The notes under the pieces were generated by a model that was given only the letters and a program-made list of their open reading frames with translations, was not told the DNA's origin and made no database searches. Position numbers and translations under genes: made by a program. From Agelas oroides (Eukaryota > Porifera > Demospongiae > Agelasida > Agelasidae): a DNA stretch of 64,000 bases. This document shows positions 2,406-53,300 of this stretch, piece after piece (positions within the stretch are counted from its first letter, which is position 1; each line of letters begins with the position of its first letter). Where the stretch lies: positions 872,516 to 936,515 of the forward strand of contig OX422201.1 of NCBI GenBank assembly GCA_949130485.1, in the 5' to 3' direction.

Positions 2406-5400
2406 ATGCGAGGATTCTGTTTGTTCCTCTCCTTATTTGTGGTCTCGACTACACTTGGACAAGAGGGTAAGTTATGGATATTGCCATTATTGGAGTGATG
2501 TAGAAGATATACTGAGACGTAACATATATGGCAAGCTCTGCCCACTATAAATACACACGTGTCACACACGCCATGCGTTTTCTCTGCATTGTTGAAGTCA
2601 AGTTAGACTAGGCGACCACACCTTGTGTAGCAGGGGGCTGGGGGTACTTGTGTCCATCAGGTACCAAGCTGCAGAATTATGTAGAGCTAGTTGCTTACTA
2701 TAATGCACTCATCGGTGAGCATACATCGGACTTTGTCAGTGAAGAACTACAAAAGTAAGATCCTAACAGCATTATTGGCCTCCCAAGAGGCTGCAAAAAC
2801 GATCTTAGAGCAGTGGTTCAGAATTTTGGGGGTGGTGTCATGCCCACAGGCGTACATACCCCCACACCCACCCACCATCCACTCTCTAACCTCTCACCTC
2901 TGGACGAGTTGCTCCACACACACAATTTTAGCCCCTGTTGCGTAGACATACAATGCAGTAGCCCATTGTTTTCCACTATTCACTATGCTAGTACTCTACC
3001 TGTATAACTCTACTTTCAGATTAACAAAATAGGAAGGAAACAGATGTGTGTCTATTGTGCAGGGTTGTACTTAGAGTAAACTTTCTATGTGAAGTTACTA
3101 CTTTGCAAGTCATCGAGCAGATCACTGTCTAGTTCTGCATGTGGCCACTAAGTATGGCATCTCGTCTCGTTTGGAAGCCAATTCCCACTGGTGGCTGGCT
3201 CTATCTGCTTGGATGTCCGAGTATCATAAAGGATTTTTTTCCTAGGGGGGGGGGGGGATGTAGATGTGTGCAAAGGGTGCATGCGTGCATCGGTGCACCC
3301 GCTAGATTTTAACGACATATTTAAGGACAAGAAACATCAGATTCAGCTATAATACTATCCTATTGTAGCTGTTGAGGCAATATGAAACCCATGCTAACAG
3401 CACATGCTAAATTGACCAAATTTTCTCATGCCTAGCATGAAAGGTTGCTAGGAGATACAGAACCTATATAAAAAAGCTCCTCTGCTCAGAGAAAACATGA
3501 CCTATAGAATTAATAAGTTTACACAAGAATTACATGTTAAAATGAGATTTTTAAAAAATAGTTGCATACAACTTAGAGAATAAATGGTAGAAATGCCAGG
3601 GGAGAGCATTCCAACTATGCACAATGCTACCAAAAAATGCAACAATTAATCCTAGGGCTTTTTCTGCACTGCTGGCATGATAGTAGGTAATTGCAAGCAT
3701 TGCACCGCAGGGTGGCTAGTCTTGTACCCAGACCAGTTCGAGACTGCAGGGTGGCTAGTCTTGTACCCAGACCAGTTCGAGACTGCAGGGTGGCTAGTCT
3801 TGTACCCAGACCAGTTCGAGACTGCAGGGTGGCTAGTCTTGTACCCAGACCAGTTCGAGACTGCAGGGTGGCTAGTCTTGTACCCAGACCAGTTCGAGAC
3901 TGCAGGGTGGCTAGTCTTGTACCCAGACCAGTTCGAGACTGCAGGGTGGCTAGTCTTGTATCCAGACCAGTTCGAGACTGCAGGGTGGCTAGTCTTGTAC
4001 CCAGACCAGTTCGAGACTACAGGGTGGCTAGTCTTGTACCCAGACCAGTTCGAGACTACAGGGTGGCTAGTCTTGTACCCAGACCAGTTCGAGACTACAG
4101 GGTGGCTAGTCTTGTACCCAGACCAGTTCGAGACTACAGGGTGGCCTTTGTTGGGACAACAGAAGAGCACGATACTGGACCCTAGTCTGTGCTTTGCAAA
4201 CAATGACTGCTATCTGTACTGATGCAATATTTGAAAGGTAGGTAGACAAAGGTAAATGTGGGGTGCAGTGCCTGATGAAGAGTCTGAAGGTTCTTCCTCG
4301 TATTGGAATGGGGGGGGGGGGGAGGGGGGGAGGGCAGTGCCTGTTGAAGAATCTGGAGGTTCTTCCTCGTATTGGAATGGTGGGGTGCAGTGCCTGATGA
4401 AGAATCTGGAGGTTCTTCCTCGTATTGGAATGGTGGGGTGCAGTGCCTGATGAAGAATCTGGAGGTTCTTCCTTGTATTGGAATGGTGGGGTGCAGTGCC
4501 TGATGAAGAATCTGGAGGTTCTTCCTCGTATTGGAATGGGTGGGGTGCAGTGCCTGATGAAGAATCTGGAGGTTCTTCCTCGTATTGGAATGGTGGGGTG
4601 CAGTGCCTGATGAAGAATCTGGAGGTTCTTCCTCGTATTGGAATGGGTGGGGTGCAGTGCCTGATGAAGAATCTGGAGGTTCTTCCTCGTATTGGAATGG
4701 GAGGGGGCAGTGCCTGATGAAGAATCTGGAGGTTCTTCCTCGTATTGGAATGCTGCTACATACAGACGGAGCATATGGTTTGCACATACTACAGAGCAGC
4801 ACAAGTACAAAGTACAAATATGAGCAATGCTCTAAAGAGATTTGTCAAAAAATAGAGTACGATGTGTTCTTGTCTACACTCTGCATAACTATCGCTCACC
4901 CCCACACATACATGTACACAGATCAGTAAAACCCTATCCCTAGTATTGGATAGATTTCAGCTCTCTTTGAACCCTGAAGCTGTTCACAGTAAGCATTTCA
5001 TTGACTTCCATAAGTGGATCAGACAGGGTTTGTGGCTGATAAGTCCTTGTAGTTGATTCAATTACCCACTTAGTTGGCATCTATTGACTAGTCCTGTGTT
5101 CAAAGGGAGTTGAAATCAACAGTATGAGTTATTTCCAAGCCTGCAATCCACTAGCCTCATTCCCAGGCTTCCGCCGAGCTTTTCATGGCTTGCAGTACGC
5201 TACTTGTTAGCTTGATTAGCATAGTTGCTGAGAGACATAGTGCCGTGGTAACCGATGTGCTGAGATTTGATGGACTAACACACGGCGGAATAGAAATTTT
5301 ATTTCGAACGGACTGTGCCGATCTTCAGGTCAATGGTCAAACAATAATCACAGCTGAAGGGAGCTTGTAGGAATGACCTCATGATTGAACCTTCACCTTC

Positions 5401-8400
5401 CTACTTCTGCTTATCGTTAAACATCTCTAAAAACCCGAGCCTGTTTTCTGTCTGCAGACAGGTGGCAGTAAGCCTACGGTCAAATACCACAGGGACACCA
5501 CAGAATGATAACGAACTCACTTATAAATTGTATTTGGTCGTCATGTTGCACCAGTGAAATCTAGCTAATTTTAGTTCATTTCTCATACAGAATGTACTAA
5601 AGAATGCAAACATAGCCACCTTTAATACTTCCTGATGGTAGAATTCACTGACCAGTACAAGTTTATTGTGCCCACAACCTCAAACCTGACAGAGGAATGG
5701 AAGTAACCTCATTCCCAGGCTCCCTAAACCTGACAGAGGAGCCTCGTTCCCAGGCTCCCTAAACCTGACAGAGGAATGGAAGTAGCCTCGTTCCCAGGCT
5801 CCCTAAACCTGACAGAGGAGCCTCGTTCCCAGGCTCCCTAAACCTGACAGAGGAATGGAAGTAGCCTCGTTCCCAGGCTCCCTAAACCTGACAGAGGAAT
5901 GGAAGTAGCCTCGTTCCCAGGCTCCCTCCAAGTGAACATGCCAAAAAGCTGGTTAGAGCCACACCCCATTGTGTCTCCTTCGGTACAAGTCGGCTCGAAT
6001 GGCTCCCCATGTGTGAACAAATTTCAAACGTTCATAGACAAGCTTTCTTGGAGTCACAGGACAGAGGGTGTTCTTGCACATGCGTGGACAAATTTCAAAC
6101 TTTCACAGACAATAAATCTGAAAACCTATAGTCCAGCTTCTCTTGCCTCAGGGTAAAACAAACAAACAAACATAAAAAGGTGTATCTCCACCATATCTTC
6201 CTCCTCATGCTCTAACAAAGAGAAAGGTCAAGTGTGCAGAACACCCTCTGTCCTTCATGTGTTGTGACTCCAAGAGAGCTATCTAAACCAGTTAGAATTT
6301 GCTCGTTGATTGCCTCACAGATGCTATACTTTGTGCGATTAGACCTCAACTTACGCAAAGAAACCAGAAATCTTGTGTATGCATGAATAAATTTCACAAT
6401 TTAATGGACAACCAACATAAAACTTTGTGTAAATTTCCGCAGCAGACTGTTATGACCTTTTGGCTGTTATGACCTTTCGACCTTTTGTAGGTTGCATTAA
6501 TTCTTCCTATACCACTCATGTGGTGCAGTACAATAACAGTGTTCGGATGGAGTGTGCCGTGTATGGCAGCTACCGCTGGTGGCAGAGTGAGGATGGATGC
6601 AGGCGCTTCTCACCATACTCCCCCTGTGATGGCCGACAGCTGTGCATGGTGCGCATAGATGAAAGCAGAGGAAGGTACCTGTATTATTGCTGCACGGAAA
6701 ATGTGGCTGAACTGAACTCCACTACAAGAAAAACCTGTTTTGAAATAGACAGTAAGAGTGATAGATTTGTGCTCTCAATGTACCTTAGCCTCATTCCTAG
6801 GTGATTTTTCGGGCCTGGGAATCAGACTGAATGTACTTGTACCTGTGATTCAGTTAGCTTTCATTCCCAGGCCTTCACCACCGTCCAGTTTTTGGTTGCT
6901 TACAGTATGCAAAAACAGAGGGGGAAGGCCTGGGAGATTTTGTCATGTGCATGGTGATGTAACGTAATGATAGGTAGACAAACGAGGGGCAGTGCCCAAG
7001 GTAGAATCTCAAGGCCCTTCTTGTAATATCTTGTCCAGGGACTTGAGACTGTAATGTTCAAAAGACAGCGCCATAACAGCTCGTTGTTTGGTAGACTTGA
7101 GTCTGATCAACGCAAAAGTTACAATGATCTGGCACTGCCCCCCATCTGTCCATCCTCTGTCTACCTGATGTCATCGCACGTGACTAAATCTCCCAGGCCT
7201 TCCCCCTCCGTTTTTGGATACTGCAAGTGATCAAAAACTGGAGGCAGAAACAACCTGGGAATGATGCACACTCTGTGCAGCTTATTCCTGGTAAGATCAC
7301 TAGGTATCTCAGTAGCCTTCAAACCCAGGTTTTCTATTTCAGATTTTGTCTCACAGCTTTGGTGAAAAGGCAGAATTTTTCCATTTTTCCTCCAAAGCTG
7401 TGAGACAAAATCTGTAACGAAAAGCCTGAGTTTGAGGCTAGGATCTCAGTGAGGGCAAGTCAGGTAGTGGTCTCATTCTCAGTCCAACATCTGGTTATGT
7501 GAATAGCCTGGGAATGAGGTAGTAGTGGGATTTTTGTGTGTTCTCATCTTATCCCTTTCCTTCCTTGCCTTCTTGCAGTTTGCACTAACGTGATTGGCTC
7601 ATCAGTGCCTCCATTTGTATTCTTTGGACAACAACAGAGGGTTTATGTCGAGATGTATGCAGAGCCGCAGCCAAGCACTCATAGCCCTCATGTATATGTT
7701 GTTGAAGACTCAGGGAATTCTACACCTGTGGATCTACTGGAAGTTGATATTTTAAGAAACTCAAGTGCTCCCTTGTTGACGTGGGTATACTTATTGAACA
7801 TCCCAGACATTCCGTCAGCTGACAGGGCTACCTTGGAGTTTTTTGCGACTTATAGCACAGCACTCATCAGGTGTTCAGGTGTCAGAAGTGTTGAACTCAA
7901 CGTTCCTGTTCTCAGAAGTGAGTCATCTCCCGGAGAGTGGCCTAGAAGTTAGGTCAAAGTGCCCCAGTTTTGGACAGAGTCCTTAGGTGTGGGATATTGC
8001 CATGCGAGGGCCACTGGTAGTCTATTGCTGGACTGTGGACTAAATTCTAGCCACACTAGCAGCAGAAATTCTCTCTTAGGGTGCACCCAGCCCTCAAGAG
8101 TTGAGAATATTTTATCTTCACATTCTTCTTCGGAGATGTTAACACTAGCCTAGCTATGGGTTAGAGACGTTTTGTTGTTATGAGAGGAAGAAGTCAGCAG
8201 TTGCCAGGAATCAAACCCAGGGCTCCTGGCTTGAGCTGTGATAACTGGAAAGCCACCAGCCCTTACATGTACTGCATGGGTGGTACTGAATGCCTCAGTA
8301 TCACACACCTGGCAGCCACTCAGCCATGGGTACTAAGTTAAGCTATGGGTTCCTTGAGCCCAAAAATCCCCCCCCCCCCCCCCTTCCTCCCAACTAATAC

Positions 8401-10386
8401 TCCTGTAGGGCTAATAAGCAGTTAGTCATCAGAGTTTCATTTAGTGTGGGTGAAAGTTGACATAAGTCGTAAAAAAAAAATCACTGTGGGTGGCCTCATA
8501 CATGCAGCTAAAAGATTAAAGAAATAAGTACCTGGCTATTTTCTAGTCCATGTGTAAGTTAGCAATTGAGGAGCTGTGTAATGTGTTTGTCTGGTTATGT
8601 CATTGCAGGAGCGGTAACTCCTCCCAGTGCAGGTAGGATCATGCGTTTCTACTCCATGTGTAAGAAACTGTAGCCTCGCACACAGGCTCTTTCTCACGTG
8701 GAAAGAAGGATTGAGCCTAGGTACAAGGTTAGAGAAGCTATGTGGTTAACTGGTCTGGTTACATTGCAGGAACAGAAAATCGCCCCAGTTCAACCGCCTC
8801 CTCCAACGCTTCAAATCCAGGTAGGATCATACCAGTAATGGTGGGGGGTGGGACATCCCTGTGCTGAATGAATCAAGTGATGTATGTCACTTTGCAGCTG
8901 CTCCGACAGCTGAAGCAGCCGCCGAAAGATCAGCTCCGAGCTCTGAAGGTTAACAACCTTTTAGCTTATTGTTGCTAGTTGCATATTGGTGGCACTTTCA
9001 AGTGCCTACTGGTATTTCCATTTTACTAGGCTACCAGTTACTAGGTTACCAGTTACTAGGTTACCAAGTCCCTTCACTAGAGGTACTTGCAATAGGTCAT
9101 AACTCGAGTATTGCAACTCATTTTTCTCAATGCCACTGCAGAGGACTACGGTAAAATAGTCTATTTCTTGTGAAACGAGAACAAAGGTACAGCAATCCAG
9201 TGTTCTTGGAGGGTACTAACTGCTCTGTTTCATTTTCACTTCACAGGCTGTGTAATTGGCTTCAGCGTGACCATAGCCATCTTGATAATTGGCTGTGTTG
9301 TTAGCAACGTGCTTGTTGGATTCACATGCCGACACATGACACAGAAAATGGAGCACAGTAAGTTGGCCAAGCCCTTGGAAGAAGTTCCCTTTGGCATCTA
9401 ATGCAAGGCCCTTGAAACTTTCCATTTACCACGAAATTATCTTTTATATCAGATAAACGGTTGGCTAACTCTGAACAGACACCAAGTCCAGGGCGGCCTA
9501 AGTCCCTGCTAGCTGGACTGCCTTACCGCCAGCTGAAGGTAAATATGTTGTATAAGATTTCTCGTGGACACTTAAGGTGGTGGGAAAGTAATTTCACAAT
9601 CAAGAGTAAAAAACACACTCTTTAATTCATCTTACTAGCCTGAACCTTCATAGGACATCTTAGTTACAAGCCACACCCTCCATTCAGATTGCCGTGCATG
9701 TGCTGGAGGGAAAAACAAATCTTTTAATCGTTTCCTAGGACTCTCATTTCTAGGTCCTGTGCTGGGACTCCGGGAATAAGGATATCCTACATAACAGAGT
9801 AAACCTGTTCCCTACCTTAAAAGCTCTAATTAAGGTGCCATTAAAAATAATTACAATCCTCAAAGGCGCCTTGTTTGGAGCGAAAAAATTGCTTTGGACC
9901 CTTGGAGGCACCTTGTTTAGAGAGGCACTAACACAGAGTCCTTTTGCTCGAGTTTTTGACACGCCTCTAGACGCCCAACCAGTCGTTTGGGTGCTGAAGT
10001 CCAAGCCGCAATGTGCAGAAGTGTAGGTAAGTGCTTGCTGCTATTTGCACAAGTATGCAAAAGCGCAAGAATGGATCTAACTGGAAGGCACCCCCCTAAA
10101 AAATAGATGTAAGCCCAAAGGGGCTCTTTGGAGCGGAAAAGAATATTTTCAGCTCCAGGGCCGCCTTCATTGGAGAGGCGCCTTAATTAGAGCTTTTTAC
10201 GGTATATGCAATGCTCTTCTCTTCTCTGAACAGGCAAGTGGCAGTGCTACTCCCACACCAGTTACCCCTATGACTCTGAGAACCCTTGCGGACAAGGAAT
10301 CTGCTGAGAGAGGACCATCACCGCACAGCCATCACGCTGTTCAAGAAGAAGCTACTGAAACTAATTACAACTCACAACGTTCCTAA
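2406..10386 (+). CDS. Receptor A: type I membrane protein with WW/CC 8-cysteine domain and ITIM-like tail
   Basis: Ten exons: 2406-2466, 6491-6751, 7579-7917, 8609-8632, 8770-8820, 8898-8948, 9142-9150, 9247-9357, 9453-9538 and 10234-10386 (381 aa). Seen: signal peptide MRGFCLFLSLFVVSTTLG; domain 1 (about 22-107) with eight cysteines, a WW pair and a YYCCTE motif; domain 2 (108-220) beginning with a VPPFVFFGQQQRVYV segment; a Ser/Thr/Pro/Ala stalk (221-265) built from four tiny exons; a TM helix near 268-291; a 90-residue tail with LPYRQL around Tyr327. Exons 1-8 all join in phase 1, as in Ig-type modules. Domain 1 may be an Ig-like fold (Cys, Trp, Tyr-x-Cys order), but this is inference. I do not recognise a named family. 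The first exon is separated by a 4-kb intron and is the least certain part. It is a tandem paralogue of receptor B. Confidence 0.72.
3707..4145. repeat. 39-bp minisatellite, about 11 copies
   Basis: Units are 39 bp and nearly identical; most variation is GACTGCAGG versus GACTACAGG. The core TAGTCTTGTACCCAGACC matches the end of the dispersed TAGTCTCGTTCCCAGACC palindromic element, so the array probably grew from one such copy. Because 39 is a multiple of 3, both strands stay open and give long artificial ORFs. Confidence 0.9.
4255..4755. repeat. About 53-bp minisatellite, 9 copies, G/T-rich on plus strand
   Basis: The unit contains GCAGTGCCTGATGAAGAATC followed by TGGAGGTTCTTCCTCG. Unit length varies by one or two bases (GGTGGGG versus GGGTGGGG), which rules out a conserved reading frame. 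A poly-G run at about 4310-4330 interrupts the first units. Confidence 0.88.
5700..5925. repeat. Tandem array of TAGCCTCGTTCCCAGGCTCC-type units
   Basis: At least five copies of a unit made of CCTCGTTCCCAGGCTCCCT plus AAACCTGACAGAGGA, alternating long and short forms (with or without ATGGAAGTAG). It is another case of the dispersed palindrome end becoming a tandem repeat. Confidence 0.85.
6790..7265. mobile_element. Diverged long copy of the TAGCCTCG palindromic element
   Basis: Inverted halves carry CCAGGCCTTCACCACCGTCC, a GCTTACAGTATGCAAAAAC core and GTAGACAAACG on the left, with the reverse complements on the right near 7150-7260. It lies in the intron between the two ectodomain exons of receptor A and resembles the better preserved copy at 16559-16958. 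Confidence 0.6.
7295..7460. repeat. Inverted repeat in receptor A intron
   Basis: The arms TTTTGTCTCACAGCTTTGG and its complement CCAAAGCTGTGAGACAAAA lie about 20 bp apart, with further inverted similarity (CAAACCCAGG, TTTGAGGCTA) outside. A related arrangement occurs at 34035-34146, so it is a dispersed foldback element. Confidence 0.65.
8185..8345 (-). mobile_element. tRNA-derived SINE-like repeat
   Basis: On the minus strand the sequence carries a pol III B-box-like GGGTTTGATTCC inside tRNA-like surroundings. The tail GGTGGTACTGAATGCCTCAG is shared with the copy at 52215-52415. It lies in a receptor A intron. Confidence 0.55.
9142..9150 (+). other. 9-nt microexon of receptor A stalk
   Basis: AGGACTACG sits between an acceptor (CCACTGCAG) and a donor (GTAAAATAG), in phase 1 on both sides, adding three residues just before the TM exon. 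Skipping it would not change the frame. Confidence 0.55.
9813..10204. mobile_element. Non-autonomous TIR element in last intron of receptor A
   Basis: The left end TACCTTAAAAGCTCTAATTA and the right end (read on minus) TACCGTAAAAAGCTCTAATT are imperfect terminal inverted repeats of about 28 bp. GGCGCCTT occurs as an internal motif. The element is 392 bp and has no transposase ORF. It lies wholly inside the intron before the last tail exon. Confidence 0.75.
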
Positions 10387-10497
10387 ATTTACGGTGTCAT
10401 TATTTTTGTAATAGAATTCATTGTTAATAATGAAAATTAACTATCGGAGGCTCACCTACGCTGCGAGCGAGATCGTACTCAAGACTCGACAAGAGTG

Positions 10498-13400
10498 ATG
10501 GACGTGCGTTTGGCATCCCGTGTGCTACTTTTGGCTGTGTGTTTTGGCGCCTTTCAGGGGGTGCTACCAGCGGGTATGTAGATCCACAGGCAGTGGTGCA
10601 TGGTCTATTCGTATTTTCTATGTGACTACAATACGCTGGCACGCCCCGAAGGAATTTAACGCGCTTACTTTCTCCATGCAGTGTGCAGCAGTGCGACCTT
10701 TGAGCCCGTGTTAGTAGACTTTGAACAGGGTGCAACATCGGCCAGGCTTGGATGCGACCCTCTCCCTGACTACAAATGGTGGGGAAGCAACAGCAGCTGT
10801 GAGCTGAGCTCATTCACACCCTACCCGGGCTGCCGCGCAATACAGAACTGCCAAGTGCCTCTGGCGACTTTAATCGATGAATTTTACATGTATTTTTGTT
10901 GTACAAGAGCAACTGTCTCTTCCTTGGAGGGGATACAGCCCCAAAAATGTTTTCAAATTCAAGGTGAGGTAATCTGCTGTCACAATCAAGTAAAATACAA
11001 CTCTTCTATATTTTAATGTGTACAACTTTCACAGCGGTTATTGCTAATCAACTTTTTTCCCCCACAGTATGTCCAAAGATAATTGACTTTGTGGTGCCAC
11101 CAGTCGTGTTTGTCGGATCACAAGAAAGAGTCTATGTTACTGTCCAGACTAACCCACCAGTTCAACCACACTTCAGCATATACCTGCAACCAGAGTATAG
11201 AGATATTGAGTTCTTTACTGTTGAAGAAGGGACTGTACTGAACATTACGTATGTGTACATTTTCGAGGTCCCATCTGACATTATCCTGGAAAATGAACCA
11301 CAAATTGAGGTGTCTGTGTCTGTATCTTCATTTTTAAACAGTCAGTGTGTTTCAGCTTCTCAGGAGAAAACTATCCAGAAGATTCGAAATGGTGAGCGGT
11401 GATATCAGACCTGTCACGGATGTGTGTGCCAGCTGATTAGATAATAGGGTGTCATTACATATCTTTTTATGAGACAATAACATAAGAATATTTGCAGAGA
11501 GCACTGGTATACTTTCAATTTGACCATCTGTATCAATGTGTGCCAACTTCTGTTCTCCCTCCTAGATTCACTACCGTCCCCATGTCCTACATCCAGTGCT
11601 TTGTCACTTCCAGTGCCCAGCACGTCAGGTTTGTAAGGCTTCGAGCACAACTACACATAAAACCATGCATAACACAATGGGAAATTGAAAATATCTTATA
11701 ATATTATCTGAGAGCTACAAATGCTTACTACATAGTAGCTAATATTGTTCCATTCAGAGAGACTGGTCCTAAGGCTCAATTCTGCCATGTTGCTAAGGTA
11801 ACAGGAATTCTAAAGTTGTAATTCTATACTCCTTGTGGTGGTATCCTTACTCACCAGGAATTCTTGATTAGACTAGAGCAGCTAAGTGTGTGTGTGTGGA
11901 GGGGGGGGGGGTGGGAGGGGAGTAGCCATAGTCCCTTTTAACAGTTCCTAGGCCCCCTTCATGAGTCTCAATAATGTGGGAAAAAGAAAACCTGTTACCA
12001 TGGTGATGGCTACTAAAATGTAGCTAGGTCATCTGTGGATTATTATGACTATGTGGAGGGTGAGCCACAGAGCCAACCTCAGCCACCTTCCAAGTTTACT
12101 TTAAGACACTGGCTTCTTTGTAATGCAAGTTGTGGTGTGTGTTGGGTGTGGACAAAATCCTGTACGCTTATTTCAAACCCGAGGTTTACATAGAAGCGTA
12201 AGGACTAAGTTAAATATCTGCGCTTGAAGTAAAGTTGAATATCTGTGCTTGAACAGGAGAGCACTTTAGTCATGCAGTAGCTGCTTAGTAGAAATTTTAG
12301 TAGAATCTTGCCAAGGCAGGCGTCTTTACCAGAGTTAGGTGACCACATGTGCAAATAATGCAGCCATTTTTCTCTGTGGAGCAGGCTCTTTCCACCTCCA
12401 GAAGGAAAGTAGGCTTATTCCAATAAGGGCTCTGGGAACAAGGTTAATTTAAAGAGGTGGACCTTGAAGTTAATATTACATTTTCAGACACCCTTTGAAC
12501 CTGATCTCAATCCTTGTTGGTGAGGTCATATAATACTATGTAGTTACTCATCAGTGAATCACAGTGTTGTTATTTTTATTTTCCCAGATGTGGTTCTTTT
12601 CATGCCTACACCTAGTCCAACTGATGTCTGTCCTCCATGTAAGTGCTTAAAATCACTATGGCAACATCCTGACTGGGGTACTTCTCAATCTAGGAGCATT
12701 GTCAGGCTGAATTGAATGGGCCTGATGATCAGACCTGATAACAAGGCAACTGCTATGTCACACTGTGCACAGGTTATAAGTACAGCATAGTCTCACACCC
12801 TCACTCCCAGGCCTTATCCATCTCCAGTTTGGACTGTTTTACAGTATTGTAAACGTGAGATTGGCTGTCCAAAAACACGTTATAGAATTCATGGAAGGCC
12901 AAGTCTTAGGTATTTTAACTGAATCAATGATTCTTTATCGCATGACCAACCAACCTGAAACCCAAAAGCAGAGGAGGAGGCCAAAGAACATGACCATATG
13001 TAATCTGTGGATAGCTGATGGGTTCTGGATGCAACGGCTTATTCACTTCAACAGCTTCAACTACCTTCAGCTACCTTCCGTCATCATTTCTGTTTCTGTT
13101 TTCACAGGTATCAAAGACTGTTTGGCGGATGTTCTTCGTCCCGTGGTTCCCCTTGCAGTCATATTTCTAGTTGCCATGAGCATCGTTGGTACTGTCTGTG
13201 TTGGGTGCGTGATCCTGCAATGCCGGAAGAGCTCTGGGTGTACCGAAGTGACAAGTAGTGATGAAGAATCAAGCAGAAGTCGTCCTCGCAACCTTGCAAT
13301 TGGTGTGTGAAACAAGTACTAACACACCTACACACACTCACAATCCACACATACCTATTTATAAGTTCTTCGTACCATGAACTCGCAGCCCAAATTGCTC

Positions 13401-15178
13401 TCACCCAACAGGAAATGGTTTAGGTATGCATGGACGCCACCACGAGTATGCCACTATCTCAACTTCATCCACGCCACATACTCCTACTACACACCCAGTA
13501 AGACTTGAAGACATACATATAGCTGGAAATACATGGAATAATGGTGTGAGACAAATAAGAGAATAATTGAAAACAGGGCCCCTGGCTTGAGTTCCCTGTG
13601 CCTTGACCACTGAGTTCAGGGCCCCTGGCTTGAGTTCCCTGTGCCTTGACCACTGAGTTCAGGGTCCCTGGCTTGAGTTCCCTGTGCCTTGACCACTGAG
13701 TTCAGGGCCCCTGGCTTGAGTTACCTGTGCCTTGACCACTGAGTTCAGGGTCCCTGGCTTGAGTTCCCTGTGCCTTGACCACTGAGTTCAGGGTCCCTGG
13801 CTTGAGTTCCCTGTGCCTTGACCACTGAGTTCAGGGTCCCTGGCTTGAGTTACCTGTGCCTTGACCACTGAGTTATGACCATCAGGCAACCGCTGTTATT
13901 TGCTTCATACTGTTTATGGTAGTTGGTATGCACCAGGTGGGTATTGTGTTACAAAATTTAGTGTTGTTTGTCTCTCCTAGCAGAGATGGCAGTTGAATCG
14001 TCCAATCAGTGAAAGCACAACATCCTCAACAACAACGACACCAAATAACGAGGTACAAAACATCAAGAAGGGTTTTGGTGCTAGAGTTTTCAGCTTGTTA
14101 GTTTGTATTTTCTTCACCATATGCAGACACACCAACTAATGTCGCCACCGCCACCTTTGCCGCCTAGGAGTGAATACAGTCATGAAGGAGATCATGTATG
14201 CAAGTTGTAGGTGTAGTCTGTTACAGTAAAGTGGTCTCATTTGGCATTGACCTCCACTGTGAGGATGGACACCTGGTATCAGGGGAAAAAAACAAACAAA
14301 CAAACAAACAAACAAGAGGACAAACATGTGACAGTATAAAGGCACATCATCCGCCTCCATTGTGAATAAGGGTGAACCAAGTAACTTAAACCTCAAATGG
14401 CAAGATGAATGTAGCTATGCCAAACACTGGAGAAAACCATGGTCTGAAGGATGGGCTTATTCTACCACTTACTATTAATTGCATAAAGAACTCAGGCTTT
14501 TTTTGTCCACGTTGATGACAGTGTTCTCACCAGAATTTACAGGCCAAAGGGCACAAATAATATCTCATGACCACGCCCCTCATTTGTATATAGTAATTGT
14601 CGTTACCAAACACTTGTTGCATGTGTACCACTGTCAACAAAGTATTTTAGTTAAGTTCAATGTTTACTAAGTTCAAGTGCCCTTTGGAAAAGGCCTAGCG
14701 AGAACTCTGGTTGATGACTGACAAGACCAGTATATTGAGGTATAACTGCACCATTCTCACTCCCTCATAGATGGTTCTTCCAAATCCTGAATCAGAGCCA
14801 ACCAGAAGTGATGAAACATACAGTCATGAGGGAAATCGCGTACGTAATGCATGATGTGTAGGGGTAGTTATAAAGTTGTCTCGTTCGGCGTTTACCTCCG
14901 TACTCTTCAGCAAGTCATGTCGCAAGGGTAAGCCAGTGCATAACCTGGACCTCAAACGGCGAGATGAGTAGCTATATAGCAGTTCTATGACAAACACTGG
15001 ACATGTGACCCTTGTTAGAAGGATGAGCTTACATGAGAAATGAGAAAACAATACCAGGCTTGGGTTTGTTTGTTTCATGTTAATAGCTGACGAGGCTGGC
15101 AGGTTACTGTATCTGTATCATTTTCACTTTTCACAGATGGTTCTTCCGACTGCTAACTCAGAGCCGACTGCAGTATAG
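10498..15178 (+). CDS. Receptor B: type I membrane protein, paralogue of receptor A, with SH3-motif tail
   Basis: Eleven exons: 10498-10573, 10682-10963, 11068-11391, 11566-11628, 12588-12638, 13108-13302, 13412-13497, 13981-14052, 14127-14195, 14771-14839 and 15137-15178 (442 aa). Signal peptide with core VLLLAVCFGAF; domain 1 (26-119) has the same eight cysteines as receptor A (14 residues around the WW pair, five residues between Cys4 and Cys5, then FCCT and KCF); domain 2 (120-227) shares VPPVVFVGSQERVYV; Pro-rich stalk; TM near 277-302. The 140-residue tail has EYATI (Tyr343), PPPPLPPR (390-397) and two similar exons carrying YSHEG. Exons 1-6 join in phase 1, tail exons in phase 0. The last tail exons are short and similar, so splice variants are likely. 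The family is not recognised. An AATAAA at 15405 may end the transcript. Confidence 0.76.
13577..13876. repeat. 43-bp minisatellite in receptor B intron, about 7 copies, SINE-derived
   Basis: The unit contains CAGGGCCCCTGGCTTGAGTT and CCCTGTGCCTTGACCACTGA. Its reverse complement, CTCAGTGGTCAAGGCACAGG, looks like the A-box half of a tRNA-derived SINE. The array lies between tail exons and includes GGGCCC/GGGTCC variants. Confidence 0.88.
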
Positions 15179-30808: not shown

Positions 30809-33427
30809 GCACACATAGGTACATAAAGCAGCTGCTGTTTCTTACCGTGCAAGGGTTCTGTCTGTTCCCTTCCGCTGGTATGCAGATAAGAGTTTCAGCC
30901 GTGAGAAGCCACATGTTAATGTAGGCACCATCGGGCACGTGGATCACGGCAAGACCACCCTCACAGCTGCCATCACAAAAGGTCAGTGAGGTGCAACCTG
31001 GTAACTGTTAGCAACAGGGATCATGGAAACGAAGCTAGGCAGTGTAGTGTGGTGTTGTCTTGCTGGCCACACCCTGTTCTGCAGAGAGTGTGACAGAACT
31101 TGTATTAAAGAAAAAATGATGCAACATGAGATCCTGCGATGGATATGAAATTCATTGGCACTTAAGTGGGAAGCCAGGTCAGCAACTTGCTACCCGCTAA
31201 AGTCTCCAGTTGTCACCACACTCTTTCCCTAGTGATAAGGATATGGGCACGAGACTGGGTACAGTACAACACAAACTGCTGTAACACACACACACTCACA
31301 CACACACACATGCACACGCACCACACACACACACACACACTCGCACGCACACACATGCACACACACAGTTTTAGCAGAGGCTGGCAGGGCCCAGTTCAAG
31401 GCCTACGATGATATTGACAATGCCCCTGAGGAGAAGGCGAGGGGGATCACCATCTCAGCAGCACACGTCGAATATGAGACAGATAATAGGCACTATGCCC
31501 ACATTGACTGCCCCGGACATGCTGACTACATCAAAAACATGATCACAGGTGGGAAATGGGTAGTCTCTCTCCACGATACACCCTCTCCTCCTCTCTTCTC
31601 CTCTCTCCTCCTCTTCCTCTTTGCTTTCCTCCTTCCTTCCATCGCTCTTTTCCCCCTTCCTCCCTATCTCACCTTCTCTTTCCCCCTCCCTTCCTCCCTC
31701 CCTTCCTCCCTCCCTTCCTCCCTCCCTTCCTCCCTCCCTCCAGATGTTACTAATACAAACCTGCAAATATGATAGAGAAATACAAAACAGATGTGATGTG
31801 CTCCATTGTCAGTTCAGTTTCTCTCACTGCTCTACAGGGGCTGCCCAGATGGATGGAGCCATCCTTGTGGTGGCGGTAACAGACGGCGCTATGCCCCAGA
31901 CCAAGGAACACCTGCTCTTGGCCAACCAAGTCAGCCCATCATTGTCTTGTGATGTTTAGGAAAGAAAGATCAAATTAGTATGGACATCCTTCAGTTCAGA
32001 CGAAAATTGATTCCCTCCCTCCCTTCCTCCTTCCCCCCCTCTCTCTCTCTCTCTCCTTCTCTCCCTTTATATTTTCCCTGCCTCCCTCCCTCCCTTCCTC
32101 CTTCCCCCCCTCTCTCTCTCTCTCCTTCTCTCCCTTTATATTTTCCCTGCCTCCCTCCCTCCCTTCCTCCTTCCCTCTCTTCTTCCCTCCTTCTCTCCTT
32201 CCCTCTCTTCTTCCCTCCCTTCTTTTCCTCCCTCTTCTCGTGTTAGGTTGGAGTGAAGTCTATCGTGGTGTACATCAACAAGGTGGACATGACAGGTGAT
32301 AAGGAGATGATGGAACTGGTAGAGCTTGAGATGAGAGAGGTCCTCGATACTTATGGCTTTGATGGTGACAACACTCCAATTATCTCTGGGTCTGCACTTT
32401 GTGCACTGGAGGTGGGTGTGTCAAGTGGGCGGGGCCACAGTCATCACCTTAGCAACGTTTCTAACCTTGATGTAGGACCACAACCCTGAGGTTGGGAAGG
32501 AATCAGTCATGAAACTGCTGGCGGCTGTGGATGAGTGGATCCCAGTCCCTATGCGTGAGATGGACAAGCCCTTTCTGCTCCCTGTGGAGGGCACTTTCTC
32601 CATTAGTGGCCGGGGGACGGTGGTCACTGGGCGTGTGGAGAGAGGCACCATGAAGAAGGGAGACGAGGCAGAGTTTGTTGGAAAGAAAGCCAAGATCAAG
32701 ACAACTATCACTGGTGAGAGAAGGGAGCTTTTTCATCACGTGATCTTACTGAACGTGAGCTGCCATCTTGGTGCACTGCATGGTACAGTAGGTCAATGAC
32801 AATATGTACAGTATCAACCGAAAACCCCACAGGTAAGCATTTTATACAGCCTCGTTCCCAGGCTTTCACACTCCAGAATGCGACTATGTATACGCAGGGA
32901 GAACCTGGTATCTTTTCTCACGTGAGCATGATGTCATGGGAAAGGGCCAGAATTTTTAGAACAGAAAAGCAACGTTTTACACACTGTTCATCCAACTATA
33001 CACTCAACGCTCGGTGTGTAGGATATTTGCTCCTCACTGCTAAATATGTGAAGTAAGTCACCCACGTAAGAAAAAACATGAGGCTCTCCCCGCCTGCATA
33101 ACTTCAATGTTCGCATCCCAGAGCAGGGGAGCCTGGGAACGAGGCTACATTTTATACAGCTGTTTTTTTTTTTCAACTTACGTACTGGTAGGTAGTATTT
33201 TCTCCAATTCAGCACAAACTAGAAGCCATAAGTACATTTTAGCCTATCAAGCCACACCCTCTCCCACCCTCCTCTAAGTATGTGTACTTATCACTTTCCA
33301 TTGCCAAATTTACAACAGAGGCTATACAATATATCTTCTTGTACACCAAGATGGCAGCTGTTTTTGTTTTCGTTGCATTTTTGAAGCTGATAATGTCACA
33401 TGAAAAGCATTATATGCTGTGTCTGTC

Positions 33428-44328: not shown

Positions 44329-44502
44329 AAACAAATCAGGTGATGTAATGAATCATGTGATGAATGACGTAATGTGTTTTGTAAAGGTCTCGCGGTTATA
44401 AAAGTGCGAAGTGGTGAACAACTGTCAAACAAAAAGAAGGTGCACTCGTTTTACATTTATACTCTAGAGCGCGACTCATAATTCGTTTTGAGGGAGACTG
44501 TC

Positions 44503-45213
44503 ATGGCCTACCACGAAGCAGGAAGATATGACAGGTGGGGTGGAGGAGGCGGCAGATTCAATCCCCGTGATCCCTATGGCGGGAGAGGCTACAGTAATCC
44601 CTATGGCCCATCATCGGAGTACGACCACGACTATCGTGGCCGTGATATGACTCAGGGTGATGAGTATGACAGAAGAATCCAGGCTGCTCACAGGAGAATG
44701 GAGGAAAGCTCAGCCAACTCCCTGCGAACCTTAAACGAGTGTGTAGATATGGGAAGTGACACCACAGTAGAGCTGGAGCGGCAAGCAGAGGTGATGGACC
44801 AAGTTGAGAGGCGTCTGGATGAAATGGATGTTGACTTGGAGAAGAGTAAGAAAAACATGAGGGTCATCCGATCTCCCTTTGGTGGTATTGCTAACTATTT
44901 TGCAAGGAGGAAGCCGGTTAGTGAAATAACAGACCCAAAAGTACCATCATCTCACACCAGAAGTAAGGCTGTCAGCTCAAAACCACAGCCACCACCTCAG
45001 CAAAGACAGCATGCCAGCACAGGAAATTCGATAGTGGACTCTAACCTAGATGAGATGGAAAAGGCACTCCACACACTGAAGGGAATCAGTGAGCTCATAA
45101 ACTACCAACTGGATGACTCAGACGCCCAGATTGATAGGGTTGGTGTAAAGGTAGACAGGGAGAATGCAAAGCTTGGTAAGATCACCTCTGACATCAAGAG
45201 AGAACTGCGGTGA
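44503..45213 (+). CDS. SNAP29: Synaptosomal-associated protein 29-like SNARE, intronless
   Basis: A single exon of 236 aa from ATG at 44503 (the frame is open five codons upstream, but without an ATG). A Gly/Tyr/Arg-rich head is followed by a Qb SNARE helix (about residues 45-120, ending IRSPFGGIANYFARRK, which mirrors the SNAP29 linker SVFGGLVNYF) and a Qc SNARE helix (about 170-236, from IVDSNLDEMEKALHTLKGIS). There is no cysteine cluster in the linker, as expected for SNAP29 and unlike SNAP25. It acts in membrane fusion, including autophagosome-lysosome fusion in animals. The usual NPF motif near the N-terminus is not seen; NPY/NPR motifs occur instead. Lack of introns, among intron-rich neighbours, could mean an old retrocopy. 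It converges with ARL16, 202 bp away. Confidence 0.88.
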   Translation: MAYHEAGRYDRWGGGGGRFNPRDPYGGRGYSNPYGPSSEYDHDYRGRDMTQGDEYDRRIQAAHRRMEESSANSLRTLNECVDMGSDTTVELERQAEVMDQVERRLDEMDVDLEKSKKNMRVIRSPFGGIANYFARRKPVSEITDPKVPSSHTRSKAVSSKPQPPPQQRQHASTGNSIVDSNLDEMEKALHTLKGISELINYQLDDSDAQIDRVGVKVDRENAKLGKITSDIKRELR

Positions 45214-45415: not shown

Positions 45416-46027
45416 TCAGTGCCTTTGCCTTTGAAGCTGTCTTGTGCTTTCACTGATCCACAGTAGAATTTCATCCACTCCTTCGTTTGTCACACAACTG
45501 CCATGAACAACTGTAATCGTTTGTGTGGCACACTTTATCATTTCATCAATTCGCATTATTGACTTGAGTTCCACCAAACTCATGCTAAAATGGCTCTCGG
45601 TCTTGTTGAAGAAAAGCAATAACGGCTTGTCTTTCAAAGCATCGGCTGAAAGCACTTCAACCAGCAGCACAGTTGCTGCAGAAATCTGTGTAAGGTTACT
45701 TGTGTCGATAACATATACTACCATTTGGCAGCTGGCATAGGCAGAGCTCCACACAGGCGCCATGCTTCCACCGTACTCCTTCAGGACACAAACCAGGCTC
45801 TTTCCTAGGGTTAGCTCTTCAACATTAGTCCCTACAGTGGGAATAGTCGGCAGCACAGCTGGAGAGGTGGGCGTGTCCCCTGGCTCCCCACCACCACCGG
45901 CTGCCTTAGAGCTTCCCTTTGACAGCTTCTTGTTGCTCAGCAGTTGCAGTTTCTTCAGTAACATGGTCTTCCCAGTCCCCTCGGGACCTAGGAACAGGCA
46001 CTGACAACCACCGCTCCTTCCCGCCAT
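45416..46027 (-). CDS. ARL16: ADP-ribosylation factor-like 16, intronless
   Basis: One exon, 203 aa from the ATG at 46027 giving MAGRSGGCQCLFLGPEGTGKT; an in-frame ATG at 46045 would add six residues. P-loop GPEGTGKT near residues 13-20, then a Gly/Pro-rich insertion, PTVGTNVEEL, the switch II region LKEYGGSMAPVWSSAY, YVIDTSNLTQISAA and FNKTES in place of NKxD. These features, in particular GTN and the YGG-MAP-WSS block, match ARL16 rather than typical ARFs. There is no N-terminal myristoylation glycine in the usual ARF context. ARL16 is reported to affect ciliary and Golgi traffic in mammals. It lies 162 bp downstream of PNLDC1 on the same strand. Confidence 0.86.
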   Translation of the reverse strand: MAGRSGGCQCLFLGPEGTGKTMLLKKLQLLSNKKLSKGSSKAAGGGGEPGDTPTSPAVLPTIPTVGTNVEELTLGKSLVCVLKEYGGSMAPVWSSAYASCQMVVYVIDTSNLTQISAATVLLVEVLSADALKDKPLLLFFNKTESHFSMSLVELKSIMRIDEMIKCATQTITVVHGSCVTNEGVDEILLWISESTRQLQRQRH

Positions 46028-46189
46028 AATAACATGCGCGCGCATCGTGCGCGTGACAGGTGACCTTGACTCGCAGACCATGCAAACAATAGCCGGGGAA
46101 AAATTCCGTCGAGTGACTGCAATTTTAATATTTAGTCATACAGAGTACATAAGTATAATTATCTACTTTATATGCAATAGAGACCATAT

Positions 46190-50381: not shown

Positions 50382-53300
50382 ATGGCTCCAGTTCCGCTGA
50401 AAAGGATCCTATCTATTTCATCAGAGGTTAGATCAAGAGCTCCAAGTGTGGATAAAATATGTTGGCCTAGTGTATGAAAATTATGCAAATTATGTCACGA
50501 TTGGATATGCCTTTTCATGAAGCATGAGCTGCAAGCTGTTAGTGTTTACCTACCATCATGTGTATGTTATCTGTAGCTGAATCAAGATTCCCCAAAGCTA
50601 GCCTCGTTCCAGGCCTTCCAACCGTCCAGTTTTGATTGCTTACACCATCAAAGAATGGGAAGGCAGTAAATACTTTGTCCTATGCTCCCATATTTATCAC
50701 ATTCCAGGATCCTCAGAACCCTGCCAGCAGCTTGTTGTCATGTGCTGGGCGGAAATGGCTATGTGCCACCGACAACAAGTCCAGGAGGGCAGAAGTCGTG
50801 CTCGAGCTTTCAAAGAGGACAAGAATTGCAAGCATTGCACTAGGTAGGTCTGTAATGGCCTCGTACCCCAGGCCATGTGGGCTGGGTGTGACACTACTGT
50901 CACCAAACAAACTGCATCTCTTTCACCTAGGTAACTTTGGGTCGGCATTTGTCGAGGTGTTTGTTAGTGACTCTGCCAGCCTGGACTCGGAGGAGTACAT
51001 CACCCTCCTTCCCCAGTCCACCCTGATGACAGTCCCAGACTCAAGGAGAGGGAAGAACAAGACGAGGTCTGTCACGTACGGTAGGGAGAAGCTGTCTAGC
51101 GCTGCAGCCACCAGGAAGTGGAACCGAGTTAAGATCAAGTGCAGGCAGCCGTACAATCTCTCTGATCAGTTTGGACTTCAGTTTGTCGCCTTCTTTTCAG
51201 ACGTTAGTGATTCATCGTCCCACACTCTCATCACCTCTCCACACACTCCACGGCTTCTCTCCCCTCCTACACCCTCCACACCCAAACTCGAATCACATCC
51301 TTCCTCCACCGACGACACACCAGAATCAGAGAACTTGTATGCAAGGCAGAGAAAGCGACTACCAACCCGCCCCACCTTCAAATCACCCATGGCTTCTAAC
51401 ACCAAGGGTGACCAAGTCGCTAAAACTTTGACACCAAAGAGGCCTCTGAAAAACCACGGTAACGATGATAATGAAGATTTTGAGTTTTCCGGCATTGAGA
51501 AGCAGTCGAGACTCTTTCAAAATGCCCTGAGGGGAAATCCTTCCAATCCTTCCTCCGAAAAAGCCAACCCAATTTTGGAGAAGATCATGTCTGAACGGGA
51601 GAAGTATAAGTCCAGCAGGCACAGTGGTGAATCAGCAACGTGTGACACATACCAGCGACGGAAGTTGCTGAAGAAGGAGCTCCCAAAGGCAGAGGCAAAC
51701 ACAGATTTCGCAGCCAGCTACGACGAGTCCAAGTCCAAACATGCAGAAGTTGCTGTTGCCATGAGCAAGTTCTATGCAAATGGTAAGACTGTATAATTGT
51801 GAGGCAAGTATTGGATATACCGTATAGCTATAAATTTTCGAGGATTTAAATTTTCGCGGATAGCCCCTCGACAAACTTTTTGCGATTTAATTTTCGAAGA
51901 TGGCGTACATACGTATGGTTTGTCCCGTCTGAGGGTAATTTTCGACGGTAAAATTTTCGAAGTTTGATGCGAATCCGCGAAAACTGCGAAAATTTTAGTC
52001 CTTGAAAATTTCTAGCTATATGGTACTACCTCTATGAGGAGTATAAACACAGATATACTCCGCTAGATGGTTTACCCGAGGTGCAGCCGAGGGTAAACCG
52101 TCTAGTAGAGTATATCTGTGTTTATACTCCTCGTAGTGGTAATTTGTACATATTGAGACAGTAAACTACCATTCAATTTTATGTAAACTATTCTGGTACA
52201 ACATGTATACTAATAGAGGAAAGTGAAAAGCCAGGAGTCACCAGGAATCAAACCCAGAGTCCCTGGTTTGAGCTGCCAGTGCTCTGACCATTGAGCCAAT
52301 GGTTGCCAGGCGACCACTAGACCTCCCAATCCTCTACACTGGGCATATACTGCACAGGTGGTACTAAATACTCCAGTTGCGACACCCAACAGCCACCTGT
52401 ACTGTTTATGTAGAGTAGCCCCATTCCCAGACCCCCCAAGCTTTCTTGGAGCGAGTCTAGGAATGAGACTATATATAGCCTCATTCCCAGGCCACATGGG
52501 AGGAGAAAAATGTAGCGTGAGAATGAGGCTTGACTGTATACTGTTATGTACTCTTAATACAGAGGATTGAGAACTGGCAGCTCAAGTCAGGGATACCCTT
52601 GGTTTGATTACCATGACGTCAGCTACCTAAAATTCATTGGAAGAAAGCTACTATCCGTTGTTTTTCTTTTTTCATCTGTTCTCTCAGACAATAAGTACGA
52701 GATTGGCCAAAAACCGGAGAACACCTGGGGGTGGGGCAGAGGTCAGAAAAAGGGGAGGAAGAGGAACAGTGGCTCCCACAAAGAGAGAGAGGGCTGGAAG
52801 GACCTAGGGGGGTGGTTGAACAAGCGCAAGAAGATAAACGGCATGATTGACCAGTGCTGGGCCATCTTGGACAAAGCTGGGGCTGGGAGTGATGGCTGTA
52901 TTTCAGAACCACCAGACGGACACACAGAGGTGTGTTGTATCTCCGTATTCATGCAAAGAAAAGTGCCCAGAGTTCATTCAACCGGCCCAATTCCCAGACC
53001 TTTCCTATCCTCGTTCCCAGGCCACTCCCAGATTTTATCTCCATACCTGGAATCAAGGAATACTGTTCCTTACTGTTGTCATAATCTCATTCTCCACCCA
53101 AATTTTTTGTCCTCGGTCATTGGACAAGATCTGGGCAGCAGAGGCCCAAGAATGAGAAACGAAGCTAAATCTCCTTGCTAAACTACGTACCACCCTGCTG
53201 GTGATGTTTACATAGCTCCCTCCCTCCCTTCCCTCCCCTCCTTTCCTCCCTCTCTCACCTCCCTCCCCCCTCCCTTCCATCCTCCCCTCTTTCTCTCCCT

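Follow-up and report, generated by a model that had tools for sequence, protein, structure and literature searches.

A tandem pair of putative sponge surface receptors with an eight-cysteine domain and a predicted Ig-like domain

The window analyzed here, a 64,000-nucleotide stretch of contig OX422201.1 from the sponge Agelas oroides, contains two adjacent genes, A and B, each encoding an eight-cysteine domain (D1) followed by a second domain (D2) with a predicted immunoglobulin (Ig)-like fold. On balance, A and B are likely old paralogous single-pass Ig-like surface receptors of a demosponge-like animal, acting in recognition or adhesion. Computation directly yielded the structures of the two genes, their homology, the invariance of the cysteines, an Ig-like model of D2, and relatives of the A and B types. 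To our knowledge, few of the sponge receptors for self, kin and symbionts have been identified, and a compact, unclassified pair whose two types both recur elsewhere would offer a simple test object for sponge recognition.

Structure and homology of the two genes

A first-pass annotation had called two adjacent tandem genes, and its coordinates were correct: A (positions 2406-10386; 381 amino acids) and B (10498-15178; 442 amino acids) lie head to tail on the + strand. The models comprise 10 coding exons in A and 11 in B, splice in frame with GT-AG at all junctions, and follow the same order of hydrophobic leader, D1, D2, short stalk exons, transmembrane exon, and tail exons. Every border through the end of the transmembrane exon is in phase 1 in both genes, as had been proposed, and an 86-nucleotide tail exon running from phase 1 to phase 0 is common to the two. 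Leader and transmembrane calls rest on hydropathy: both N termini are hydrophobic, and the strongest internal windows (residues 266-284 of A and 283-301 of B) indicate one transmembrane segment each. We infer that A and B are type I membrane proteins located at the cell surface, and the ectodomain plan, the glycosylation sequons, and the stalk would fit a surface receptor. The features are as follows, with the basis of each in parentheses.

2406-2466, +, gene A exon 1: start codon and hydrophobic leader, phase 0 to 1 (splice model, hydropathy)
6491-6751, +, gene A exon 2: D1, eight-cysteine WW/CC domain, phase 1-1 (splice model, alignment)
7579-7917, +, gene A exon 3: D2, predicted Ig-like sandwich, phase 1-1 (splice model, structure model)
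8609-8632, 8770-8820, and 8898-8948, +, gene A stalk exons, phase 1-1 each (splice signals, open frame)
9142-9150, +, gene A putative 9-nucleotide micro-exon, uncertain (splice signals)
9247-9357, +, gene A transmembrane exon (splice model, hydropathy)
9453-9538, +, gene A 86-nucleotide tail exon with LPYRQL (splice model)
10234-10386, +, gene A last coding exon (splice model)
10498-10573, +, gene B exon 1: start codon and hydrophobic leader (splice model, hydropathy)
10682-10963, +, gene B exon 2: D1, eight-cysteine WW/CC domain (splice model, homology to A, alignment)
11068-11391, +, gene B exon 3: D2 (splice model, homology to A, alignment)
11566-11628, +, gene B stalk exon (splice signals, open frame)
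12588-12638, +, gene B stalk exon (splice signals, open frame)
13108-13302, +, gene B transmembrane exon (splice model, hydropathy)
13412-13497, +, gene B 86-nucleotide tail exon with HEYATI (splice model)
13981-14052, +, gene B tail exon (splice model)
14127-14195 (PPPPLPPR, YSHEG) and 14771-14839 (YSHEG), +, gene B tail exons, tandem exon duplication (splice model, nucleotide comparison)
15137-15178, +, gene B last coding exon, PTAV end (splice model)

Pairwise comparison indicated that A and B share 32% identity in D1 (E 6e-13) and 27% in D2 (E 0.003), and D1 of one gene found the other at E 2.3e-6 in a search of the whole 259-megabase (Mb) genome. Judged by these protein alignments, the likeness is beyond chance. 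Nucleotide comparison gave only short intronic matches (first intron of A, 6148-6178, to an intron of B, 14279-14312) and no exon DNA similarity, and thus the duplication appears to be old. Whole-genome protein searches (259 Mb) with both ectodomains recovered the four ectodomain exons of A and B, one false match, and no third copy, within a limited reach that very remote copies could escape; the false match, on C9 (E 0.059), was rejected because it has an in-frame TGA and no recognizable domain. Moreover, a six-frame profile scan of the window set apart the two known exons for each domain, the next best E values being 0.15 (D1) and 0.71 (D2). Genome scans found the motif YxYxCCT at 5 places and the pattern Y..WW..C at 17, two of each being A and B; the remaining places were dismissed as short frames or as falling below the D1 profile inclusion threshold (best E 0.014 among the loci examined).

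The introns of A and B also hold minisatellites at 3707-4145, 4334-4752, 5682-5898, and 13574-13874, with units of 39, 53, 79, and 43 bases and 97 to 99% matches. Upstream of gene A, and head to head with it, eIF3c occupies 1-2199 on the - strand (E 6e-06 for residues 34 to 75 of the 702-944 frame), so that gene A begins beside a divergently placed housekeeping gene. If eIF3c begins at 2199, the two start codons are about 200 bases apart.

Relatives in public sequence data

Protein searches covered 5.77 billion sequences. A single-sequence search with A, in which the best 7996 candidates by shared words were scored, gave two matches, P0001 (E 1.1e-51) and P0002 (E 2.4e-32). The D1 profile search, suggested by the first-pass annotation, returned 10 relatives, and the D2 profile search returned 23 proteins, two of them the window's own, leaving 21. 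The best relatives from outside the query alignments were P0007 (1.2e-55) and P0017 (5.3e-56); the profile E values of P0001 and P0002 are not independent, as both were rows of the queries. No relative carries a precomputed Pfam label. Those examined are single-exon open reading frames, several with intron read-through. Their sources are labeled ena or lgn, consistent with animal DNA deposited in uncurated public collections. Scans of genome_contigs and viral_contigs found no DNA of the relatives.

All 10 D1 matches and the two window exons were aligned for D1 (12 rows), and 16 of the 23 D2 matches and the two window exons were aligned for D2 (18 rows); P0016 and P0019 were left out as the window's own, and P0024, P0027, P0034, P0036, and P0037 as partial or near-identical. 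In trees and identity tables, the aligned rows fell into an A-type and a B-type group. An extra A-like branch, of a type not seen in the genome of the window, comprised P0010 (D1, 73% identical to A) and P0002 and P0017 (D2, 62 and 60% identical to A). P0020 (A-type D2) and P0037 (B-type D2) give the same longest contig size, 234,118 bases, and thus an A-type/B-type pair is probably linked on one contig there too.

Searches against known families gave no convincing match to a named family in Pfam, NCBIfam, or PDB sequences, in agreement with the annotation. Pfam returned for the full proteins only DUF6264 (0.23), in the stalk and transmembrane region of A, and the prokaryote library NCBIfam returned nothing for the four domains. 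Among PDB sequences, profiles found nothing for D1 and only titin (0.93) and a biofilm protein (1.2) for D2; single-sequence searches found 1y0h (0.68) for the A ectodomain, nothing for D1 of B, and, by phmmer with D1 of A, 1y0h (0.18) and two antibody heavy chains at E 1.3 and 4.6 only. Literature searches yielded no paper recognized as describing the pair, which is not proof of absence from print. As far as the sequence searches reach, the proteins are apparently lineage restricted. The lineage-specific receptor family envisaged earlier is thus upheld in its apparent restriction, but in this genome the family amounts to the two genes found.

Domains D1 and D2

The annotation had assigned D1 of A and B the same eight-cysteine spacing. 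The named pieces agree, namely C2-x14-C3 around WW, C4-x5-C5, then CC, and then C-F, but elsewhere the cysteines of the two proteins are spaced differently (in A and B, respectively: C1-C2, 19 and 22; C3-C4, 8 and 10; C5-C6, 14 and 15; C7-C8, 14 and 15). All eight cysteines are kept in 12/12 aligned sequences and fall among 22 invariant columns that include both tryptophans and the Y.Y.CCT stretch. Within that alignment, x14 becomes x15 in two sequences, x5 becomes x4 in five, and C-F becomes C-T in three.

An Ig-like fold had been argued from phase-1 borders and a C...W...YxC order, with structure models and Foldseek as the check; the confident Ig-like model was that of D2, whereas the argument had been drawn from D1. 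The D1 model, built from a 3-row alignment, reached a predicted local distance difference test (pLDDT) score of 50.3, and Foldseek gave 0 matches at an E value of ≤1e-3, its list being meaningless at such confidence. D1 was also compared with an I-set profile made from 26 of 30 exons of the same genome, duplicates removed. Over 57 columns, C22, WW, and YLYYCC aligned to strands B, C, and F, with a score of 11.5 against a mean of 10.0 (standard deviation, 1.8; maximum, 15.3) for 100 shuffles. No Ig-clan Pfam model matched D1 in 12 members to an E value of 10; only DUF5346 (0.76) and RANK_CRD_2 (1.9) appeared, in one member each. Ly6/uPAR three-finger proteins have a CC-x4-CN ending. That identity was rejected for D1, as 14 (A) or 15 (B) residues separate CC from the last cysteine and no Ly6 Pfam model matched.

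D2 was modeled as an Ig-like sandwich with a pLDDT of 89.5, and we predict that it adopts an Ig-like beta-sandwich fold. Both window genes carry the core VPPxVFxGxQxRVYV exactly, as had been noted, and P10, P11, F14, G16, P29, V69, Y70, P75, D76, and C98 are invariant in the 18 D2 sequences. The only conserved cysteines are Cys98 (18/18) and Cys1 (16/18, the other two rows beginning inside the domain). The canonical Ig disulfide between strands B and F and the core tryptophan, which are missing from some members of the superfamily, were not found in D2: the predicted B strand lacks a cysteine, and the predicted C strand lacks a tryptophan. Likewise, no Ig-clan Pfam model matched 18 D2 members to an E value of 10, which gave only MG1 (0.094, two members), DBB (0.058, one member), and DUF4160 (0.071, one member). 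That a predicted Ig-like domain escaped sequence searches of Pfam, NCBIfam, and PDB hints at an undercount of Ig-type receptors in sponges.

The genome holds at least 150 I-set exon matches (the best 150 of 1509 candidates scored). Ig-type proteins are therefore common there, and the absence of a match to any Ig model sets A and B apart. I-set exons cluster on C1, C3, C4, C12, C18, and other contigs, some in tandem near-identical arrays (e.g., C4:7171661-7199313).

Possible roles and genomic surroundings

A role in recognition or adhesion is plausible for the putative receptors. A membrane-distal, disulfide-stabilized D1 would sit on the Ig-like D2, followed by a flexible stalk, and D1 and exposed D2 loops would bind in trans to a ligand on a neighboring cell, the matrix, or the microbial surroundings. 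Binding could then be relayed by the cytoplasmic tails, which, as the annotation had said, are unlike each other. In A, the signal may pass through a tyrosine motif, LPYRQL, which we take to fit the consensus of an immunoreceptor tyrosine-based inhibitory motif. In B, it may pass through PPPPLPPR, which has the form PxxPxR, the tyrosines of the two YSHEG copies, and a PTAV end that presumably fits the class I PDZ-ligand pattern; HEYATI lies in the same tail. The two YSHEG copies result from tandem duplication of a tail exon and adjoining intron (14174-14255 versus 14818-14899, 71%).

One narrower possibility, which we hold open at somewhat less than even chances, is a pair of constitutive adhesion or matrix receptors resembling small adhesion molecules of the Ig type. 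D1 and D2 would then have a fixed partner, and the proteins would be tethered to the cortex by their PDZ-type and proline motifs. Consistent with constitutive adhesion, structural comparison of the D2 model placed the adhesion molecules ICAM-1 and MAdCAM-1 in the two best rows, but rows within a Z difference of <1 count as tied, and MuSK, filamin, and VEGFR-2 are among them. PPPPLPPR and PTAV in the B tail would suit such anchoring, although tail motifs are known from A and B alone, the relatives being ectodomain exons. The presence of only two genes, and of both the A-type and the B-type in other data, also points this way. As in Ig-superfamily type I receptors and adhesion molecules generally, A and B are predicted to be single-pass, with one-domain phase-1 exons and a predicted D2 sandwich; unlike them, A and B match no Ig model in sequence, D2 lacks the B-F disulfide, and D1 has eight cysteines. 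GSAM of Geodia cydonium is described as a sponge adhesion protein with an Ig domain (PMC7916673). Compared by that description, A and B resemble GSAM as putative sponge surface proteins with a predicted Ig-type domain but differ in that D1 and D2 match no Ig model; the only matches bearing on a GSAM-type likeness to vertebrate IgV were the antibody heavy chains found with D1 of A (E 1.3 and 4.6).

Less probable is a fast-evolving pair for self/non-self or microbe recognition, whose polymorphic Ig-like ectodomains would distinguish partners that are allelic or foreign, with signaling by the tails. The allorecognition proteins Alr1 and Alr2 of Hydractinia are highly polymorphic, single-pass products of linked genes, with low sequence identity, in a family numbering 41 loci or more; their placement in the Ig superfamily was aided by AlphaFold (PMC11067881, PMC11999971). 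By description rather than sequence, A and B are similar: two linked, putatively single-pass Ig-type proteins of an early-branching animal, with a fold unrecognized by Pfam, in a genome rich in Ig exons. Only two loci were found here, however, and no expanded complex, in a search of limited reach. Parts of D2 vary in letters and length among relatives (in B-type D2, at about columns 33-64 and 84-113, other stretches being nearly fixed), but that variation could lie between species or between alleles. In D1, P0007 and P0001 differ from A mainly within the first 31 residues (P0007, 5/31 plus a two-residue insertion versus 1/56 in the remainder; P0001, 3/31 versus 0/56), but P0008 (3/31 versus 7/56) and P0009 (2/31 versus 4/56) lack that bias; pooled over the window and four close A-type relatives, 9/31 sites vary up to WW versus 7/56 after it (P = 0.08). 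Both alternatives are narrower versions of the receptor reading, and their likelihoods overlap with it. A bolder form would make D1 a new disulfide-rich recognition fold of one sponge lineage, in a conserved demosponge gene pair for self/non-self or symbiont recognition, with selection driving divergence of the D1 tip and of the D2 loops; we regard it as a long shot.

The models of A and B have weaker parts. Tail motifs as short as these arise by chance, and the relatives comprise ectodomain exons only. The 9-nucleotide micro-exon of gene A (9142-9150) is supported by splice signals alone, the gene A donor GTTAAC after 8948 is a further weak point, and the stalk and tail exons of both genes are supported by splice signals and open frames only. 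That the exons are not truly joined or the genes are pseudogenes is nevertheless very improbable, as A and B lack exon DNA similarity yet keep the same ectodomain exon order and phases, their ectodomain exons are open, and D1 and D2 are conserved in relatives.

Elsewhere in the window lie exons of an EF-Tu GTP-binding domain (31239-31956, +), a SNAP-like protein recognized by eye (44482-45210, +; only DUF5089, below cutoff), an Arf-family GTPase (45416-46132, -), and an XRCC1 N-terminal domain (50636-51793, +). A COX1-like frame without TGA at G000:C107:16176-16808 looks bacterial by eye and perhaps belongs to a symbiont or contaminant contig. Mitochondrial COX1, demosponge-like in its features, was found at G000:C141:13976-16550, with TGA read as W and an intron of about 1.2 kilobases at FFGH/PEVY that contains a LAGLIDADG-like frame; a frame resembling nad1 follows it on the same contig.
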